Shown here: in pieces, positions 1 to 15,798 of the stretch
Numbering within the stretch: position 1 is the stretch's first letter
Layout of the letters: every line of letters begins with the position of its first letter
Virus record (IMG/VR): IMGVR_UViG_3300049826_000059
Span: 1 to 35,897 of that record
Length of the DNA: 35,897 nt
From: a virus
Strand: one strand, 5' to 3'
Notes under the pieces: generated by a model
What the model saw: the letters and a program-made list of their open reading frames with translations, nothing else
Told to the model about the DNA's origin: nothing
The model's database searches: none
Program-made: the position numbers and the translations under genes

Positions 1-219
1 TATAATTTTTGATCCGGCACACCAACAATTTATTGAAACCGTCTCTCTGTATCGTGTTGCAGCGCCACCCTCTCCGTATAAGAAAAATTCGCCAGTCTTT
101 TTTCTGTAAAGAGTCTCGCTTTTGTTGTAAAAATCTCCACTGCCAAGATCGTTGCTGTATGAGTCGACAAAGGCCGCTGTCTTTGTGTTGTATAGCTTTC
201 CGTTGATAACTTTTTTCAT
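1..219 (-). CDS. Phage/bacterial accessory protein, 5' part only (runs off the left edge)
   Basis: An open frame on the minus strand starts with ATG at 219 and is still open at base 1, giving 73 residues of the N-terminus. It begins MKKVINGKLYNTKTA and contains SETLYRKKTGEFFLYGEGGA. This resembles a small conserved family of unknown function, common in phages and bacterial accessory regions, with a KxINGKxYxT start and an ETLYRxKxGxxFLxGEGGA core; that is recalled from memory and not searched. The start is supported by a TTAGGA ribosome-binding-like stretch 6 nt upstream. Its leader shares a 26-bp element (25 matches) with the leader of the neighbouring minus-strand gene, so the two are probably co-regulated. 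The function is unknown. A role in host takeover or anti-defence would be a guess from context. Confidence 0.75.
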   Translation of the reverse strand, partial: MKKVINGKLYNTKTAAFVDSYSNDLGSGDFYNKSETLYRKKTGEFFLYGEGGAATRYRETVSINCWCAGSKII

Positions 220-227
220 GTGATTTC

Positions 228-253
228 CTAAGTGTGATTAATTTGTTGGCTGC
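228..253 (-). repeat. Shared leader element, copy 1
   Basis: On the minus strand this 26-bp stretch contains AACAAATTAATCACACTTAG and lies just upstream of the ATG at 219. A second copy (944-969) differs at one position and lies just upstream of the ATG at 936. Positions 228-248 are identical to 944-964. It could be a shared promoter-proximal or 5'UTR element, or the trace of a duplication. Confidence 0.8.
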
Positions 254-316
254 CTGTACGGCAGTGTATTTTTCTACGCTGCTTGTGCTTTCTAAGCTGC
301 CTGTTCGGCAGTTGGT
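242..316 (-). repeat. Three tandem type I-F CRISPR-like repeat units without normal spacers
   Basis: Unit A (242-269) and unit C (289-316) each match the Pectobacterium/E. coli type I-F repeat consensus, recalled from memory, at 23 of 28 positions. Unit A holds an 18-base exact stretch, GCTGCCTGTACGGCAGTG (plus strand). Unit C begins TTTCTAAGCTGCCTGT (plus strand), which on the minus strand gives the CTGCC/GGCAG stem followed by the exact CTTAGAAA handle. Unit B (271-288) is a truncated copy matching 15 of 18 positions. The units lie almost directly end to end, with no 32-nt spacers, so this is not a working array. The orientation is co-directional with both flanking genes. The last codons and the TAG stop of the 214-aa gene are formed by unit C. 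No cas genes are in the window. Confidence 0.7.
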
Positions 317-936
317 TTAATTTTTCTGGCTAGAGCAATATCGAAAATGTTGTTTGAAAATTTGATTAAAACTTCTCTGCGAACTTCTTCATTGATGTTT
401 GCGTAATACCAATCATCGCCTGCGTCACTAGGTATTCTTAATAAATGTAAAATAATCCAAACTTTGTGCGCATTTTTTATGAGCGTAGAAATTCGTTCTG
501 CAGAAGTTTCTTCAAATTCCGAGTAATGAGAAATAAAATAAGGGTCTTCGTAAAGATGCATCTGCGATGCTTTTACCCGAAAATCTAATCTGTAGGAGTA
601 GTAATCAGTTTCACGAATAGAAAACCTTAGTTTTTTAGCCCAAATAATTGTTTCACGGTATGATCTGTGAAAACGGCAGTTTGCCTCGAGTGATATAGTT
701 GATGGTTTCAACTGTAGATCAAATTTTTTTGATACTGTTCCGCAAATGACTTTTCCTTTGTGTATGCGAACGTATGTTGATGCAAGCAAGGGTACTCCTA
801 AGATTACAGCGTCTTCTGAGAGTACCGCGTCGCTTATAGACCCATCGTCGTTTTCGAATCTAACTCCCGTTCCCGCTTTGCAGGGGATGCCATATATTAC
901 TACGTCTTCTTCGAGAATAATTTCATTGCGATGCAT
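292..936 (-). CDS. Hypothetical accessory protein with two N-terminal GIPCxAGT-type repeats
   Basis: This 214-aa protein has no recognised enzymatic motif. Its first ~75 residues hold two related beta-rich repeats, VVIYGIPCKAGTGVRF and AVILGVPLLASTYVRI, each followed by a short G/K-rich turn and a strand. They resemble MORN/YwqK-like repeats found in bacterial accessory proteins, a memory-based similarity. The remaining ~130 residues look mixed alpha/beta with many charged and aromatic residues. The ATG at 936 is preceded by the shared leader element at 944-969. The stop codon lies inside a type I-F CRISPR-like repeat, so the C-terminal TAEQAA is encoded by that repeat. The gene is transcribed away from the late block, like the partial gene to its left. 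It is probably a moron gene. Its function is unknown. Confidence 0.75.
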   Translation of the reverse strand: MHRNEIILEEDVVIYGIPCKAGTGVRFENDDGSISDAVLSEDAVILGVPLLASTYVRIHKGKVICGTVSKKFDLQLKPSTISLEANCRFHRSYRETIIWAKKLRFSIRETDYYSYRLDFRVKASQMHLYEDPYFISHYSEFEETSAERISTLIKNAHKVWIILHLLRIPSDAGDDWYYANINEEVRREVLIKFSNNIFDIALARKIKPTAEQAA

Positions 937-9310: not shown

Positions 9311-10414
9311 ATGATCACTATCAACTCTTCGAATATGGGTTCCCTAGCTACAAACGCCGAGGCGATTGCTGGTAGTGATCCACGATTGGTTATGTCTCCA
9401 GCTTCATTACAGGCCGTAATGGATGTCTCAAGAGACTCGTTTTCACACTACGAGAATCTGGGGATCAAATATGTCGCTGGAACATTCTCTGTTTGTGCTG
9501 CAAATGGATCCGATCTATCAGCTACTAACTATGCTAAACTTACACTACCCAGCAACGTTCAAGCTGGCACCATCGTTAGACATACGCTAATTGCCAATCA
9601 GTCGTTCATCGATGCCACTGGGGCTTCAACGATTATTGGCAACGTCATGGGCACAACAGTGGCTAAAGCTTGGCCTGAACAGATGCCTATGTTTATCTAC
9701 TGCGCTCCAAAGTCGGATGATACAACACCCGTCTTCTTCATCTCCCGAATACCCAATATGAGCTACATCCCACCCACTGCTAAGATCGGTTACTCTGGGA
9801 CTCCTGCAGCTAGCACTGCTGGCTCGGTATTTGCATTACAAGTTATCGATGGCAACGACTATCAGGGATGCCCAGCTGTCTTGATGGGGTCATTCCGCAT
9901 GGCCTCAAAATCCGCATTAGAAGACTGGACAGTGGCCGGCTTAGATCGCACTGATGGCTTTGGTCTCTATCGAGATAATCAGGGCTTTAACATGCCTTAT
10001 AATCAGTTTGGAGCGACGTCTCTAATCATCGAGGGAGCTGGCACATCCCCAACGTTTGGAATCCAAGAGTCTCTCGGTTACAACGTCCAGCGTAGTGGCA
10101 TGTGTGGCATACAGTTAATCTTGGTTAACTTCGGCGGTGGAACTCCAGCGTCTGGAGCTAACGATGTTGAGGTGGTATGTCCTCTTCCCGCATCAACACA
10201 GTTCCCAGCTGCTGCAGTATTTTGGGCTAATGGAGCCGACTTCTTGACAGCTGACAAGAGCATGGAGTTAGCGCAGGCTATTGGATCTCCACTTCCTGGA
10301 GTCATTAAGTTCTCACCAGGAACAGCTGGAGCTTTTTTCTTAACGCTAAACGACTTGAGTGGAGATGTTAGGTTGTTATCTGGAACGTTCTCTTACCCGA
10401 TTGGTACTGACTAA
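9311..10414 (+). CDS. Tandem paralogue 1 of 6 (virion surface/receptor-binding candidate)
   Basis: This 367-aa protein is the first of six adjacent relatives. Shared landmarks are an N-terminal NxGSLATNAEAIAGSDPR element (present in all six as NxGxxAxxxexIaGxDxrk), a TLPSNV/ANQSFIDATGAS block, an FFISRIP segment, MGSFRMASKS followed by DWTV, and a C-terminal GTPASGANDVEV strand. No enzymatic motif or signal peptide is visible. The sequence is rich in Ser, Thr, Gly and aromatic residues, as in beta-structured virion surface proteins. The gene follows the GC hairpin and uses ATG after GGGGTAAC. Its stop overlaps the next start by one base (TAATG). The role as a tail or capsid surface protein is inferred. 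Confidence 0.65.
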   Translation: MITINSSNMGSLATNAEAIAGSDPRLVMSPASLQAVMDVSRDSFSHYENLGIKYVAGTFSVCAANGSDLSATNYAKLTLPSNVQAGTIVRHTLIANQSFIDATGASTIIGNVMGTTVAKAWPEQMPMFIYCAPKSDDTTPVFFISRIPNMSYIPPTAKIGYSGTPAASTAGSVFALQVIDGNDYQGCPAVLMGSFRMASKSALEDWTVAGLDRTDGFGLYRDNQGFNMPYNQFGATSLIIEGAGTSPTFGIQESLGYNVQRSGMCGIQLILVNFGGGTPASGANDVEVVCPLPASTQFPAAAVFWANGADFLTADKSMELAQAIGSPLPGVIKFSPGTAGAFFLTLNDLSGDVRLLSGTFSYPIGTD

Positions 10415-11493
10415 TGCCAACTAATAACGCTTGGAATCAGGGTACGCAGGCTACGAATTCGGAAAGCATTGCTGGGACGGATACCCGAGCGGTAATCTCT
10501 CCATCGACATTGCAGAGCGTTGTTAACATTGCTCGTAACCAGATACCTTGGTTTGAGAACTTAGGGTTACAATATGCTTCCTCTACTTTCTCCATCTTGG
10601 CATCTGATGGGACAAACTTATCTAATACCAACTATGCTAAAGTCACGCTGCCTTCTAACGTTAACCGTGGTCGCTTGGTTAAATATACGCTCATTGGTAA
10701 CCAGTCGTTTATAGACGCCACTGGTGCCTCTACGATTACGGGCAACACGTTTGGAACAGATGCAGCGGTGGCTTGGAATCAGCCTATGCCGTTCTTTATC
10801 TACTGCGCTGCATCATCTACGGATACCAACCCTACGTTCTTTATCTCCCGAGTTCCACACAGACAAACGGTTCCTCCTGCTGCAAACATTGGTCAAAGCG
10901 GATCTGCCATAGCTGACATCGAGAATGCGTTCTTTGCGCTCGCCGCTGTAACGGCTGCCAACTACGCGGGATCGTCTTGTATCTGTCTGGGATCATTTCA
11001 GATGGCTAGCAAGTCGGCTGGAGATGCTTGGACTGTTCAGGCGTTGGATGCTACGGATAACATTGGCTTCTTCAAGGACCAAACGTTCTTCAACTATCCC
11101 ACTGGACAGCGTGGAGCTACGGCTTACATGCAACCCAACGGTGGAACTGGGCCAACATTTACTGGCACTCAGACTTATATCTACTGCGTTAGACGAGATG
11201 GGCTTAGCCAAATCCGTGTGACTCAATCTAATGCTGCTGGTGGCACAGCTGGAGCTGGAGCGGGTAACGCTCGACTTAACCTACCTTTCGGCGCATTCGA
11301 CACAACCTATCAAGACACAGGTTATTATGTTAACGGTGGTACGTCCAGATCTGTTATTTGGAGTACGTTTCCTGCTGGTTATGCTGAGCAATTGCGTGAT
11401 GATACCGGAGCTCTACTGACTAACAACAGCTATAACAACGCATCTCGTCAGCTATCTGGCAAGCTCGAATATCGCATTTCGGATACAACATGA
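10414..11493 (+). CDS. Tandem paralogue 2 of 6
   Basis: This 359-aa protein is closest to paralogue 1: both share PSNV, NQSFIDATGAS and the FYITCA-like IYCA segments. It begins MPTNNAWNQGTQATNSE and carries SRVPHRQTVPPAANIG, CICLGSFQMASKS and DAWTVQALD. These are the array signatures. It is translationally coupled to its neighbour by a 1-nt overlap. The stop codon overlaps a small 36-codon frame (11490). It is probably a structural surface protein of the same kind as the others, with divergence concentrated in the C-terminal half. Confidence 0.65.
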   Translation: MPTNNAWNQGTQATNSESIAGTDTRAVISPSTLQSVVNIARNQIPWFENLGLQYASSTFSILASDGTNLSNTNYAKVTLPSNVNRGRLVKYTLIGNQSFIDATGASTITGNTFGTDAAVAWNQPMPFFIYCAASSTDTNPTFFISRVPHRQTVPPAANIGQSGSAIADIENAFFALAAVTAANYAGSSCICLGSFQMASKSAGDAWTVQALDATDNIGFFKDQTFFNYPTGQRGATAYMQPNGGTGPTFTGTQTYIYCVRRDGLSQIRVTQSNAAGGTAGAGAGNARLNLPFGAFDTTYQDTGYYVNGGTSRSVIWSTFPAGYAEQLRDDTGALLTNNSYNNASRQLSGKLEYRISDTT

Positions 11494-11600
11494 ACCCAAT
11501 ATGCCCCATACCGATTAGACCCGAGCCTGTGATAACGATTGAAGTGCCAGAAAGACCCAAGAACCCCTCACCCAAGCCGGTAGAAAATGCCCACAAATAA
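11490..11600 (+). CDS. 36-aa proline-rich peptide within the paralogue array
   Basis: ATG at 11490 overlaps the TGA of paralogue 2 (ATGA), and the TAA ends 14 nt inside paralogue 3. Together they make a continuous coupled chain through what would otherwise be a 93-nt gap. The product, beginning MNPICPIPIRPEPVITI, has 10 prolines in 36 residues and no membrane segment or lipobox. A function is not evident. It may exist to couple translation of paralogue 3, which lacks a good ribosome-binding site. Confidence 0.45.
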   Translation: MNPICPIPIRPEPVITIEVPERPKNPSPKPVENAHK

Positions 11601-12648
11601 TTCCATCAATACTCAGGGCTTAGCTAGTTCTGGAGAAGTGATTGCTGGGGTCGTTACTAACAAGCTTGTCACACCATTTACACTAGACGCATTGCTAGAC
11701 ACCTTTACGATTGTCTCAGATCTATCTCCTAATCTCGGTCTCTATTACTCGTCTGGCACACTCTCTATTAAGAGCTCCGTTGGTGCAGATCTGTCTTCAG
11801 GAGCTCCAGGACGGCTTAAGCTTAGCTCCAAGGCATCTGCAGCCCAGTATATTACTTACGTCATTACAGCCAACCAGACGCTGACAACATCGGATCTGAC
11901 ATCTAACCTATTTGGCACAACGACTTCGGTTGCTTGGGCTGAGGACAAACCATTTTACCTATATGCTGTACCTAATGATGCTGAGACCGCAGTTTCGTTT
12001 ATGATATCAGCTGTTCCACACCGGTCCACCTCTCCAGCTGCTGCTAATATCAGTAAGACTGGATTAACGGCTGCCTCGACTCAGGGCTCTTTCTTCGCAT
12101 TTGGTAACCCAACGATTGCGGATTACGAAAGCAACGGTGCATTCCTAATGGGATCATTTCGTATGCGTAAAGACGCGTCTAATATATGGACTGTGCAGGC
12201 TTTGGATAACCAAGATGGACTCTATGTCTACCAACAAAACAGACTCTTTAACTACCCTTCTGGCCAGCAGACTGCTGCGTCAGGTGAGTGGTTCCGACCG
12301 AATGCTGGCACTCCAGCGGTATTTACCACCAACACCTACCAATATACCCTCTCGTTTTCGGGAGTATGTCAAGCCGTCATCAAGTTTGATGGCGACGGAG
12401 GAACAGACGGCTCGGGGTCTGTTAACGTACAACTTACTGCACCATACACAGCATCCACAGCTGCATCTCAGTTCAACGCTGAAATATCATTCGGGGGAAC
12501 TACAGCAAGTTCAGTCCTTGATTTCTCAGGAAATGCTTATGCTGAGGTGTTTCGAAGCGATACTGGAGCTAAGCTCACTTATGCTGGTTGGGTCGCAGGT
12601 GCTAGGTCCCTCTCGGGTATCGTCAACTACGTAATATCGAGCTCATAA
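11587..12648 (+). CDS. Tandem paralogue 3 of 6
   Basis: This 353-aa protein begins MPTNNSINTQGLASSGEVIAG. Array signatures present are an SAVPHRSTSPAAANIS segment, FLMGSFRMRKD, IWTVQALDNQDG, FNYPSGQQ and DGGTDGSGSVNVQL. Its start has weak Shine-Dalgarno support and lies in the end of the 36-codon peptide gene. It ends with a 1-nt overlap with the next copy. Surface virion role inferred from the array and its position next to fibre genes. Confidence 0.65.
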   Translation: MPTNNSINTQGLASSGEVIAGVVTNKLVTPFTLDALLDTFTIVSDLSPNLGLYYSSGTLSIKSSVGADLSSGAPGRLKLSSKASAAQYITYVITANQTLTTSDLTSNLFGTTTSVAWAEDKPFYLYAVPNDAETAVSFMISAVPHRSTSPAAANISKTGLTAASTQGSFFAFGNPTIADYESNGAFLMGSFRMRKDASNIWTVQALDNQDGLYVYQQNRLFNYPSGQQTAASGEWFRPNAGTPAVFTTNTYQYTLSFSGVCQAVIKFDGDGGTDGSGSVNVQLTAPYTASTAASQFNAEISFGGTTASSVLDFSGNAYAEVFRSDTGAKLTYAGWVAGARSLSGIVNYVISSS

Positions 12649-13718
12649 TGGTAACTAATAACTCTATAAATACCGGTAACTTGGCCTCTGACGCGGAGAT
12701 GATCGCAGGTCTAGACCAACGCAAACTCGCGGCTCCAAGCTCACTAAAGGCCTTAACAGACGCCCGTGTGTTAACTGGGGTTGTGCAGAATCTGGGGCTA
12801 ACTGTTAGCGGTGGAACTCTGACTCTGACGAGTGCGGATGGCTCGGCATTGAGTGGTGGAAATCCTGGCAAAGTGTTTATTGGCTCGAATGTAAACTTTG
12901 GAAAGGTTATCGAGTATAGCCTAACTGGCAACCAGACAATTACAGAGGCAGCTTTAGCCGGTGGTAACCTGTTCAATACATTTACGGGCAGAGCTTGGGC
13001 GGACCAAATGCCTTTCTTCGTATACATGGTTGCTAGCAGCACAGACACAGCTCCCTTGATGATGATCTGTCGACAGTCACACCATTACATCTCATCTGCT
13101 TCTATTGGAGTTTCTGGTAGCCCTGTTGCGGATTCACAATTCTCTTTCTTTTCATCTGGCACACCAACGGCTTACTTATCTCAATCGTGTGTCTGTATCG
13201 GATCAATCCGTATGACCAAGGACGCGGCTAACGCTTGGACGTTCACGGCGCTTAATGAGACTGACGGCATTGGCCGATTTAGAGAGGGCGAACTCTTTGA
13301 TATGGCATCCAATCAGGGTGTAACAGCTGCTAGCGGATATTTCTTAAATATCACCCCACCCGTGTTCACAACCAATACCGTTAAGTACTCCATCGACCGA
13401 CAGGGGAACTGTTATTACTATTGGAACTTTCAGGGTGACGGTGGAACAGATGGTTCCGGAGCAAGCAATGCAAACTTAATGATACCGTTTGATATTGATG
13501 GATCTCAGGGAGGAGCTTTGTTTAGACGTGGTGGTGGAGCTGGTAGCGCCTTCTTTGCTGGAGCAACACGGGCTAATCTCTATTACGTATGGCCGTTTAC
13601 CACACAATCTATTGAGTTTCATCGAGCGGATACTAACGCCATCCTGACCAACGCAGCGTTTACCAATGGCGATAGATCACTAACCGGCTCCGCAATCTTT
13701 TTCATGGATAGCGCATAA
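12648..13718 (+). CDS. Tandem paralogue 4 of 6
   Basis: This 356-aa protein begins MVTNNSINTGNLASDAEMIAG. It has WADQMPFFVYMVASSTDTAP, CVCIGSIRMTKD, AWTFTALNETDGIG and DGGTDGSGASNANL. The segment RRGGGAGSAFFAGATR, near residue 285, is a glycine-rich insertion not seen in the other copies. It is coupled on both sides by TAATG overlaps. The function is inferred as for the rest of the array. Confidence 0.65.
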   Translation: MVTNNSINTGNLASDAEMIAGLDQRKLAAPSSLKALTDARVLTGVVQNLGLTVSGGTLTLTSADGSALSGGNPGKVFIGSNVNFGKVIEYSLTGNQTITEAALAGGNLFNTFTGRAWADQMPFFVYMVASSTDTAPLMMICRQSHHYISSASIGVSGSPVADSQFSFFSSGTPTAYLSQSCVCIGSIRMTKDAANAWTFTALNETDGIGRFREGELFDMASNQGVTAASGYFLNITPPVFTTNTVKYSIDRQGNCYYYWNFQGDGGTDGSGASNANLMIPFDIDGSQGGALFRRGGGAGSAFFAGATRANLYYVWPFTTQSIEFHRADTNAILTNAAFTNGDRSLTGSAIFFMDSA

Positions 13719-14764
13719 TGGTACAAAACAACTCCATCAATACCGGTCCCATAGCTAGCTTGGCAGAGTCTATTGCTGGATCGGATACCACTAAGCTAAT
13801 AACGCCATACACAGCTTACCGAACATTGCTGGCACGCGGATTAAATGCCTCTAAGCAGAACTTGGGCATAACAACATCTGGCGGGTTAATGACGATAACC
13901 GCTGCAGATCAAACCGCATTATCCACAACGAATCTTGGCACAGTAATCATTCCATCTAAAACGATGGGTGAGTTTAACACTTTCTATATCACTTCAAACC
14001 AAGTGCTTACGATCTCAAACATGACTAACAATCTGTTTGGAACTACGGTTGGAGTTGCTTGGGCTAACAACCTACGTCTTTATATTTACGCTGTATCTAA
14101 TGACGCTGAAGACACCGTTACATTCGCCGTTTCTAGGATTAGATCAAGAGTTACCGCTCCATCTGCTGCTAACATTGGGACACCATCTAGCGCTGTAGCG
14201 GATACTCAGGGCTCTTTCTTTATGTTTAGCAGTGTCACCGTTGCAGATTATGAATCAAACCCATGTGTATGCATTGGGTCATTCCTTGTTACGAAGAACT
14301 CTTCGGATGTTTGGTCGCAGGTTGCTGTAGCTAGAGATACTGGCATTAATAGATTTGGAAATGGATTCCTTCAAAGCTTTCCAGCAGGTCAGTTTGGAGC
14401 TGTATCAACCAAGGTTACGCTTGCTAACGGTGGTGTTGGAGCTACATTTTCAACACAGCTAATCCAGTATATGTTACAGCCAAACGGGCTTTGTACAATG
14501 TTCGTTAACTTAAATACCGTGACTGTGGCTAGTTCGGGAAGCGTTAATACTCAGGTGACCATTCCCTTCGCTCCAGCTTACGACAATTACCCCTTGGTGG
14601 CAGGTGATATATTCATTGCCGGTGCAAGTACTGGATACTACCCTATTATTCACAGCGCAAATTACATGGAATTTAAGCGTACTTCGACTGGAGCTTTTCT
14701 TTTAAACAGCACAGCGACGGCTAACATGGCGTTTGTTCTAACCTATCAAGTGAGCGATCAATGA
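13718..14764 (+). CDS. Tandem paralogue 5 of 6
   Basis: This 348-aa protein begins MVQNNSINTGPIASLAESIAG. It carries LRLYIYAVSNDAEDTV, SAVADTQGSFFMFSSVTVAD, NPCVCIGSFLVTKNS and FPAGQFGAVS. The usual DGGTxGSG loop is reduced to VTVASSGSVNTQV. Its stop overlaps the next start by four bases (ATGA). The function is inferred as for the rest of the array. Confidence 0.65.
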   Translation: MVQNNSINTGPIASLAESIAGSDTTKLITPYTAYRTLLARGLNASKQNLGITTSGGLMTITAADQTALSTTNLGTVIIPSKTMGEFNTFYITSNQVLTISNMTNNLFGTTVGVAWANNLRLYIYAVSNDAEDTVTFAVSRIRSRVTAPSAANIGTPSSAVADTQGSFFMFSSVTVADYESNPCVCIGSFLVTKNSSDVWSQVAVARDTGINRFGNGFLQSFPAGQFGAVSTKVTLANGGVGATFSTQLIQYMLQPNGLCTMFVNLNTVTVASSGSVNTQVTIPFAPAYDNYPLVAGDIFIAGASTGYYPIIHSANYMEFKRTSTGAFLLNSTATANMAFVLTYQVSDQ

Positions 14765-15798
14765 CACAAAACTCAATCAACACGGGTTACATAGCCTCCA
14801 GCACAGATGCAATCATTGGAGCCGATACTCGTAAGCTTATTGTGCCCTCCTCACTACTGGCTGTGTCCAACTCAATCAGATCATCTGACATCGGTAGCAC
14901 GTATAACCTCAGGTTATCGTTTGGTAGCCCAAACTTAGCTATCAACACCTACAGCGACAACACTCCCAGCTCGTCTAATCCCGCCTATGTGGTAACCCGA
15001 TCTAAGGGGATTGCTGGCAAGGCTGTGCTTCAACAGATCACTGGAGCCAACACGTTCTCCCAAACCAGCATGTTAAATAACCTGTTTGGTACGGTTGGGG
15101 GTACAGCTTGGTCTTCTGTGATGCCAATGTACGTCTACTGCGTTACGGATGATTCAGATGCCAACCCCGTGTTTGCATTAAGCCGTGTTCCACACCTGAC
15201 AACATCTCCAACTGTGGCTAACTCAGGCTCTCCTAGCTCGTCAACAGCTGACACAGATCAAAGCTTTTTCTACTTCAACTCTGGCACAGTGCTAGCTAAC
15301 TACGACCAAAACCCATGCGTCTGCATTGGATCATTGGAGATCTCTAAGAGCGCTCTAGACGCTTGGACCATTAGCACAGTGCACCCAATTGGGGATCTTA
15401 GAGAGCAGACTTATTACACGTTTCCTGGCTATGGCAGCGGGTATTTGGCTAACAACGGTGGTACCGCCCCAACGTTTTCGTTTAATGTGTACCAATACTC
15501 TATCAGCCGTCAGGGTGTGATAACCGTTAATATCAATCTGGCTAACGATGGTGGAGTAGCTGGAGCTGGAGCTGTTGATACACAGGTGTACCTGCCCATC
15601 AAGTTCTTGGCTGACGTTAACCTGTCCAGCGTGTTTGTTGTTGGGCCTGCCACTCGTCAGTATTCAATTTGCGCTACCGCTCCCTACTATTTTGTGATAC
15701 GTGATACGACTAGCTCCATCAACATCCAAAACAACTTCTTCACCGCTGGACCACGCGGTATTGCAACCTATTTCAACTATCAACTACAGGTAGACTAA
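14761..15798 (+). CDS. Tandem paralogue 6 of 6
   Basis: This 345-aa protein is the shortest and most divergent copy, beginning MTQNSINTGYIASSTDAIIG. It keeps MPMYVYCVTDDSDANPVFAL, SRVPHLTTSPTVANSG, NPCVCIGSLEISKS and AWTISTVHP, then a DGGVAGAGAVDTQV strand. The N-terminal third has diverged from the other copies. It ends with a 1-nt overlap with the small gene that follows. The function is inferred as for the rest of the array. Confidence 0.65.
   Translation: MTQNSINTGYIASSTDAIIGADTRKLIVPSSLLAVSNSIRSSDIGSTYNLRLSFGSPNLAINTYSDNTPSSSNPAYVVTRSKGIAGKAVLQQITGANTFSQTSMLNNLFGTVGGTAWSSVMPMYVYCVTDDSDANPVFALSRVPHLTTSPTVANSGSPSSSTADTDQSFFYFNSGTVLANYDQNPCVCIGSLEISKSALDAWTISTVHPIGDLREQTYYTFPGYGSGYLANNGGTAPTFSFNVYQYSISRQGVITVNINLANDGGVAGAGAVDTQVYLPIKFLADVNLSSVFVVGPATRQYSICATAPYYFVIRDTTSSINIQNNFFTAGPRGIATYFNYQLQVD

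Follow-up and report, generated by a model that had tools for sequence, protein, structure and literature searches.

A two-unit, short-spacer type I-F crRNA module carried by a phage is best read as an RNA anti-CRISPR, a reading to which we give a probability of about 0.65, and the array is most likely a variant of the RNA anti-CRISPRs and one of a recurrent set of phage short-spacer arrays. The window analysed is the whole virus record of 35,897 bases, the left end of which, at least, is open, and protein scans found the phage to encode P22-like portal, terminase, Erf/RecE and RusA genes. A preliminary description of this DNA had suggested a solitary repeat unit acting as an RNA anti-CRISPR; its proposal of an RNA anti-CRISPR against type I-F is retained here, and the solitary unit is replaced by a pair.

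The two repeat units lie on the minus strand. Unit C (289 to 316; ACCAACTGCCGAACAGGCAGCTTAGAAA) comprises a stem at 297 to 311 and the full 5' handle CTTAGAAA at 296 to 289, with a predicted Cas6f cut at 297/296, and unit A (242 to 269; ATACACTGCCGTACAGGCAGCCAACAAA) has an intact stem at 250 to 264, a predicted cut at 250/249 and a degenerate handle (CCAACAAA). Each unit matches the consensus GTTCACTGCCGTACAGGCAGCTTAGAAA at 23 of 28 positions, as had been claimed, where the next-best place in the window reaches 17 and the best score among dinucleotide shuffles (n=100) was 20. A search for CTGCCGNACAGGCAG with up to 2 mismatches allowed found 2 occurrences, both exact, against 0.16 expected. 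The CTGCC/GGCAG stem and exact handle previously reported for unit C were confirmed, and the stem of unit A proved perfect too; when the minus-strand RNA was folded, as had been recommended, each unit formed the 5-bp Cas6f stem (unit C -8.6 kcal/mol). The handle is lost from unit A, the first 4 bases of unit C deviate from the I-F consensus, and in their 5' five bases the units differ both from one another and from the consensus.

The units are 47 nt apart from start to start, which leaves a 19-nt spacer between them (270 to 288, minus strand; GCACAAGCAGCGTAGAAAA), so the earlier view of head-to-tail repeats without spacers was mistaken. Applying the I-F cleavage site (PMC10651486) to units C and A predicts a 47-nt mini-crRNA (250 to 296, minus strand) composed of 8 nt of handle, 19 nt of spacer, 5 nt of flank and a 15-nt hairpin. 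The layout is not that of a solitary unit, defined by the absence of full or partial repeats within 100 bp, as a second unit stands 47 nt off, nor that of a canonical I-F array with 28-nt repeats, spacing of about 60 nt and 32-nt spacers; identity to the consensus is also below the 90% demanded by SRUFinder. It is the layout of a CreR array, with two units, a short spacer, the first handle kept and the last lost. No cas genes were found among the window proteins scanned, so the adjoining cas genes of CreR are missing here, and neither Tn7-like transposition genes nor the minimal cas set of a type I-F CAST were present among the scanned proteins, which represent part of the ORFs of a contig cut at its left end. 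The preliminary description was thus right that cas genes (among scanned proteins) and 32-nt spacers are absent, and wrong in concluding that there is no array. The window gave no match in Rfam and no tRNA.

The strand and the shared direction with the flanking genes were given correctly, and the placement between two genes holds for the intergenic unit A only, since unit C overlaps the 3' end of the ORF at 936-292, which takes its stop codon from the TAG in the handle. That ORF (292 to 936, minus strand; 214 aa, ending ...KPTAEQAA*) lies upstream of the array and is an orphan, with no homologues found in viral contigs or in profile and structure databases; an AlphaFold model made without an alignment (pLDDT 31) was discarded. 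The downstream ORF (1 to 219, minus strand; 73 aa), cut by the contig end, belongs to a small phage family with homologues of 38-49% identity in Lactobacillus, Paracoccus and methanogen-virus records. Searches of the flanking genes against solved structures, NCBIfam and PADLOC gave nothing usable, and neither gene could be tied to anti-defence, a role that had been suggested for both. No convincing promoter was found directly upstream of unit C, so the array would depend on read-through, and it may be transcribed from the 214-aa gene in this way. In the predicted fold of the free precursor, a competing hairpin in which the spacer pairs with unit A is preferred. A 29-nt stretch at 228 to 256 (minus strand), which overlaps the 3' part of unit A, is the same at 27 of 29 nt (93%) as 944-972; it forms the 5' untranslated stretch before both minus-strand genes and could be a duplicated leader or operator.

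No close relatives of the locus were found by blastn/megablast against phages, nor among viral contigs via the 214-aa and 1591-aa proteins, and a search with the portal protein returned one relative only (27% identity). Elsewhere in the window, TTTGTGGAACAA occurs in three tandem copies (1216-1254), and six consecutive genes of 345-367 aa on the plus strand (9311-15798) have similar N-termini (NNSINTG...AES IAG.D) and are apparently tandem paralogues, perhaps copies of a tail fibre or adhesin. An ORF open at the contig end (35337-35897, plus strand), with last residues ...VWYIHIVTEF...IMGVDLGLNNIATTSIG, gave no Pfam match at E<=0.01 and no PDB match; its end resembles the RuvC-I stretch of TnpB/OrfB.

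Short-spacer I-F arrays recur in viruses. An unbiased search of viral contigs for the stem with an exact handle returned 117 stretches. Of their 129 repeat clusters, the window included, 40 were single units, 39 were ordinary arrays, 17 were ordinary pairs, 4 were mixed and 29 were short-spaced. When the gap was allowed to vary, a further scan yielded 28 viral contigs and 84 stretches from genomes. Non-redundant viral spacings were concentrated at 42 and 46-49 nt and those of genomes at 47-49 and 54, compared with 60 in ordinary arrays; the short spacings thus equal 60 minus about 18, 12 and 6, in steps of approximately 6 nt, as much as a single Cas7f covers. A Rayleigh test for period 6 gave R = 0.48 (n = 113), but there are only three modes and a period of 7 fits equally; the step size is therefore argued from the agreement with 60 minus 6n and not from the test alone. 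Across 34 non-redundant viral arrays the handle was kept in 49 of 53 non-final units against 7 of 34 final units. In the same arrays 13 stem changes were compensated (for example CTGCT...AGCAG and CTACC...GGTAG) and 1 was broken, a count biased towards paired cases by a unit finder that demanded pairing when clusters were first defined. The window array suits this class throughout, with two units, a spacing of 47 within the main viral mode (46-49), the first handle kept and the last lost.

The short arrays of many phages (L161, L123, L120, L127, L046, L099, L116, L122, L014, L023 and L172) lie downstream of one conserved phage protein family of about 220 aa, so that a fixed accessory-gene site seems to collect them. 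In three others (L021, L103 and L119) a homologous protein of 82-107 aa is encoded upstream of the short array and is a candidate accessory or anti-CRISPR gene.

The published survey of solitary phage repeats (Racrs) with SRUFinder counted full matches less than 100 bp apart as arrays and nearby partial matches as mini-arrays, and it dropped candidates whose flanks were repeat-like (PMC10651486), so the short-spacer class was left out of it by design. Our literature search found no description of short-spacer I-F arrays of phages, which is weak evidence of novelty given that most subscription papers were beyond its reach.

Many of the genome examples lie between a csy1-sized and a cas3-sized gene, which in those scanned were csy1 (TIGR02564) and cas3f (TIGR02562). 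Among genome spacers (n=55), 74% had at least 9 of 10 seed matches beside a CC within 3 kb, usually just upstream, compared with 3% for swapped spacers. In 32 host guide-target pairs the match rate was 0.84-1.00 at positions 1-5, 7-11 and 13-17 and fell to 0.34, 0.28 and 0.16 at 6, 12 and 18; because positions 1-5 and 7-9 served to choose the pairs, the information lies in the dips and in the high rate at 10-11 and 13-17. The same pattern is known from structures of type I effectors, in which Cascade leaves every sixth base unread. These arrays by csy1 (L134-L213), which have 20- or 26-nt spacers, are CreR-type regulators with a 17-nt pairing region gapped at 6, 12 and 18. CreR is described for type I systems in the summary given in PMC12737573.

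At least one phage array looks, from its spacers, like a copy of such a host cas-silencing guide. An Azonexus prophage array (L161), beside which lie a Sie-like gene and a gene sharing 83% identity with one of viral contig L123, has spacers beginning AAGTAGTTACG... and AAGTAGTTTCC..., and the host CreR spacer at csy1 starts with AAGTAGTTTCC and has the target CC-AAGTAGTTTTC; two of the three prophage spacers have their first 8 and 11 nt in common with the host spacer. A P. indoloxydans prophage spacer had no convincing target in its host genome. As a set, viral short spacers (n=50) matched their own loci no better than the null, unlike those of host CreR, as would be expected of a sink or decoy. 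Against csy1 promoter regions and array leaders (120 csy1 loci from about 1,570 sampled genomes, the CreR loci and 69 array leaders, the hosts being known for few of the viral arrays) they showed no excess over shuffled spacers; the exceptions were the spacers of the Azonexus prophage and the repeat match in the window.

Properties of I-F systems suggest how the module could inhibit its host. For I-F1 of A. actinomycetemcomitans, spacer length L sets the count N of Cas7f subunits by L = 6N-4, with assembly down to approximately 14 nt; spacers shortened by 6, 12 or 18 nt bind with falling affinity, none triggers Cas2/3, and the in vivo binding effect is gone at -18 (PMC7296934). A complex with a 19-20-nt spacer would on this basis bind weakly and not cut. 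Phage-borne I-F repeats act as inhibitors of immunity and are substrates of Cas6f, and interference is already reduced by a non-targeting crRNA on its own (PMC10651486). We infer that the window copy would be transcribed from the minus strand, probably inside the 936-1 operon, and cut at both stems by host Cas6f, releasing a mini-crRNA that carries a proper handle at its 5' end, a 3' hairpin from unit A and between them a 19-nt spacer with room for about 4 Cas7f instead of six. This RNA would assemble Cas8f, Cas5f, about 4 Cas7f and Cas6f into a truncated Csy complex unable to trigger Cas2/3, such that Cas proteins would be withdrawn from immune crRNAs, and the spacer may in addition steer the non-cleaving complex to CRISPR repeats.

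What the spacer itself does could be answered in two ways, which are versions of the same short-crRNA claim and whose likelihoods therefore overlap. Compared as GCACAAGCAGCGTAGAAA, the spacer matches GCACAGGCAGCTTAGAAA, the part of a repeat that follows its only CC (in CTGCC), at 16 of 18 positions, and the CC before GCACAGGCAGCTTAGAAA is a PAM. The mismatches fall only at 6 and 12, the signature seen in the 32 host CreR pairs, and in the 17-nt pairing region none of the 15 positions that are read is mismatched. The repeat types matched (GCACA loop, CTTAGAAA handle) include the second commonest of the 194 distinct repeats compared, GTTCACTGCCGCACAGGCAGCTTAGAAA. The loops in the phage repeats are GAACA and GTACA, each of which carries a mismatch to the guide at seed position 2. 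The preliminary description had taken this segment for a truncated repeat unit B: the likeness to a repeat is genuine and extends over the loop, the 3' arm and the handle found in a common type, but the segment is the spacer and not a unit, and a guide would account for its register and mismatches no less well than a truncated repeat would. We tentatively propose that GCACAAGCAGCGTAGAAA could lead a truncated, non-cleaving Csy complex to all host CRISPR repeats, at their CC-flanked half, where the complex would block array transcription and park Cascade on many sites, the phage's own repeats being spared through the mismatch at seed position 2. The wider proposal that phages deploy short-spacer crRNAs as a class, either sinking Cascade or copying CreR guides, is put forward jointly with this repeat-targeting reading and is equally tentative.

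It is somewhat doubtful, and still the strongest competitor, that the mini-crRNA only sequesters Cas proteins, its spacer an irrelevant relic of a contracted third repeat. The failure of viral short spacers as a set to match their own loci or the sampled csy1 promoter regions and leaders points that way, and the window spacer resembles the 3' half of a repeat, as contraction would leave. A strict register scan found no second viral array with a repeat-matching spacer, the window match standing alone in the set; a looser first scan was dominated by coding repeats. Contraction, however, would have had to begin exactly at the PAM-adjacent base, a junction with odds of perhaps 1/4 to 1/15, and to leave its sole two differences at 6 and 12, which go unread (a probability of 3/153 over position pairs), both odds being post hoc and from one locus.

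The preliminary description had also allowed for the remains of a repeat element. That the window holds a decayed Racr or array without present function is improbable, even if the divergent 5' five bases of the units, the handle gone from unit A and the single locus without close relatives would suit it. Both stems are perfect and the first handle is exact, although random decay would strike stems too, and the differences are those found across the whole class. For the class, in which stems co-vary and handles are kept, decay is disfavoured; the single window copy may still be a remnant.

Three further readings were considered and rejected. Host arrays of like short-spacer design act beside csy1, and by analogy Cascade might be led to a promoter in the phage genome as a CreR-like regulator of the phage's own genes, but within 3 kb no CC-flanked site matches the seed of the window spacer at more than 7 of 10 positions, as many as swapped spacers achieve, making this very improbable. 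It is just as improbable that ordinary hairpins, such as plain terminators on either strand, resemble I-F repeats by chance: the plus-strand stems are followed by T-rich stretches and terminator-like sites number 3 against 1.1 expected, but the 5-bp stems have no long adjoining U-run, no recognised plus-strand gene ends there, and the loops, the CTTAGAAA handle and two matches of 23/28 beyond all shuffles would be left unexplained. Least probable is an ordinary mini-array against a rival virus, as known in archaeal viruses (PMC6858448), for the spacer is 13 nt below the I-F norm of 32, I-F1 spacers even 6 nt shorter fail to trigger Cas2/3 and no array leader was recognised.

If the short-crRNA reading holds, these arrays would be a recurrent phage counter-defence class that was invisible to the published survey because neighbouring repeats were filtered out, and their spacing in Cas7f-sized steps makes a direct structural prediction of a truncated Cascade unable to recruit Cas2/3. 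If the guide reading is true, phages turn CRISPR interference on CRISPR arrays. The 17-nt pairing of host I-F CreR, with gaps at 6, 12 and 18, gives a rule by which guides of this kind can be sought in other genomes.

Among known systems, RacrIF1-3 (Camara-Wilpert et al. 2023, PMC10651486) resemble the window array as phage-borne I-F repeats with an intact Cas6f stem, no cas genes and an expected withdrawal of Cas proteins. Racrs are solitary repeats with a product lacking the 5' handle, whereas the product of the two window units would combine a handle with a short spacer and a hairpin. RacrIF1, lacking a handle, traps Cas6f and a Cas7f filament without Cas5f or Cas8f (PMC10651486); the window product, with its handle, is predicted to trap Cas5f and Cas8f too. 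Virus-borne mini-CRISPR arrays (Medvedeva et al. 2019, PMC6858448) likewise have few repeats and no cas genes and use host Cas proteins, but they carry ordinary spacers against related viruses. CreTA/CreA antitoxin RNAs, as far as they are covered in PMC12737573, are similarly crRNA-like RNAs, which would use Cascade without cleavage; the window array differs from them in having no recognised neighbouring toxin gene and no target at its own locus. CreR (Liu et al. 2023), to the extent that it is summarised in PMC12737573, shares the two-unit short-spacer I-F module with the first handle kept and the second lost, and the guide pattern of 17 nt in which 6, 12 and 18 go unread; by the same summary it is chromosomal, lies beside cas genes and targets a cas promoter, whereas the window array is phage-borne and matches the CRISPR repeat best, not a promoter.
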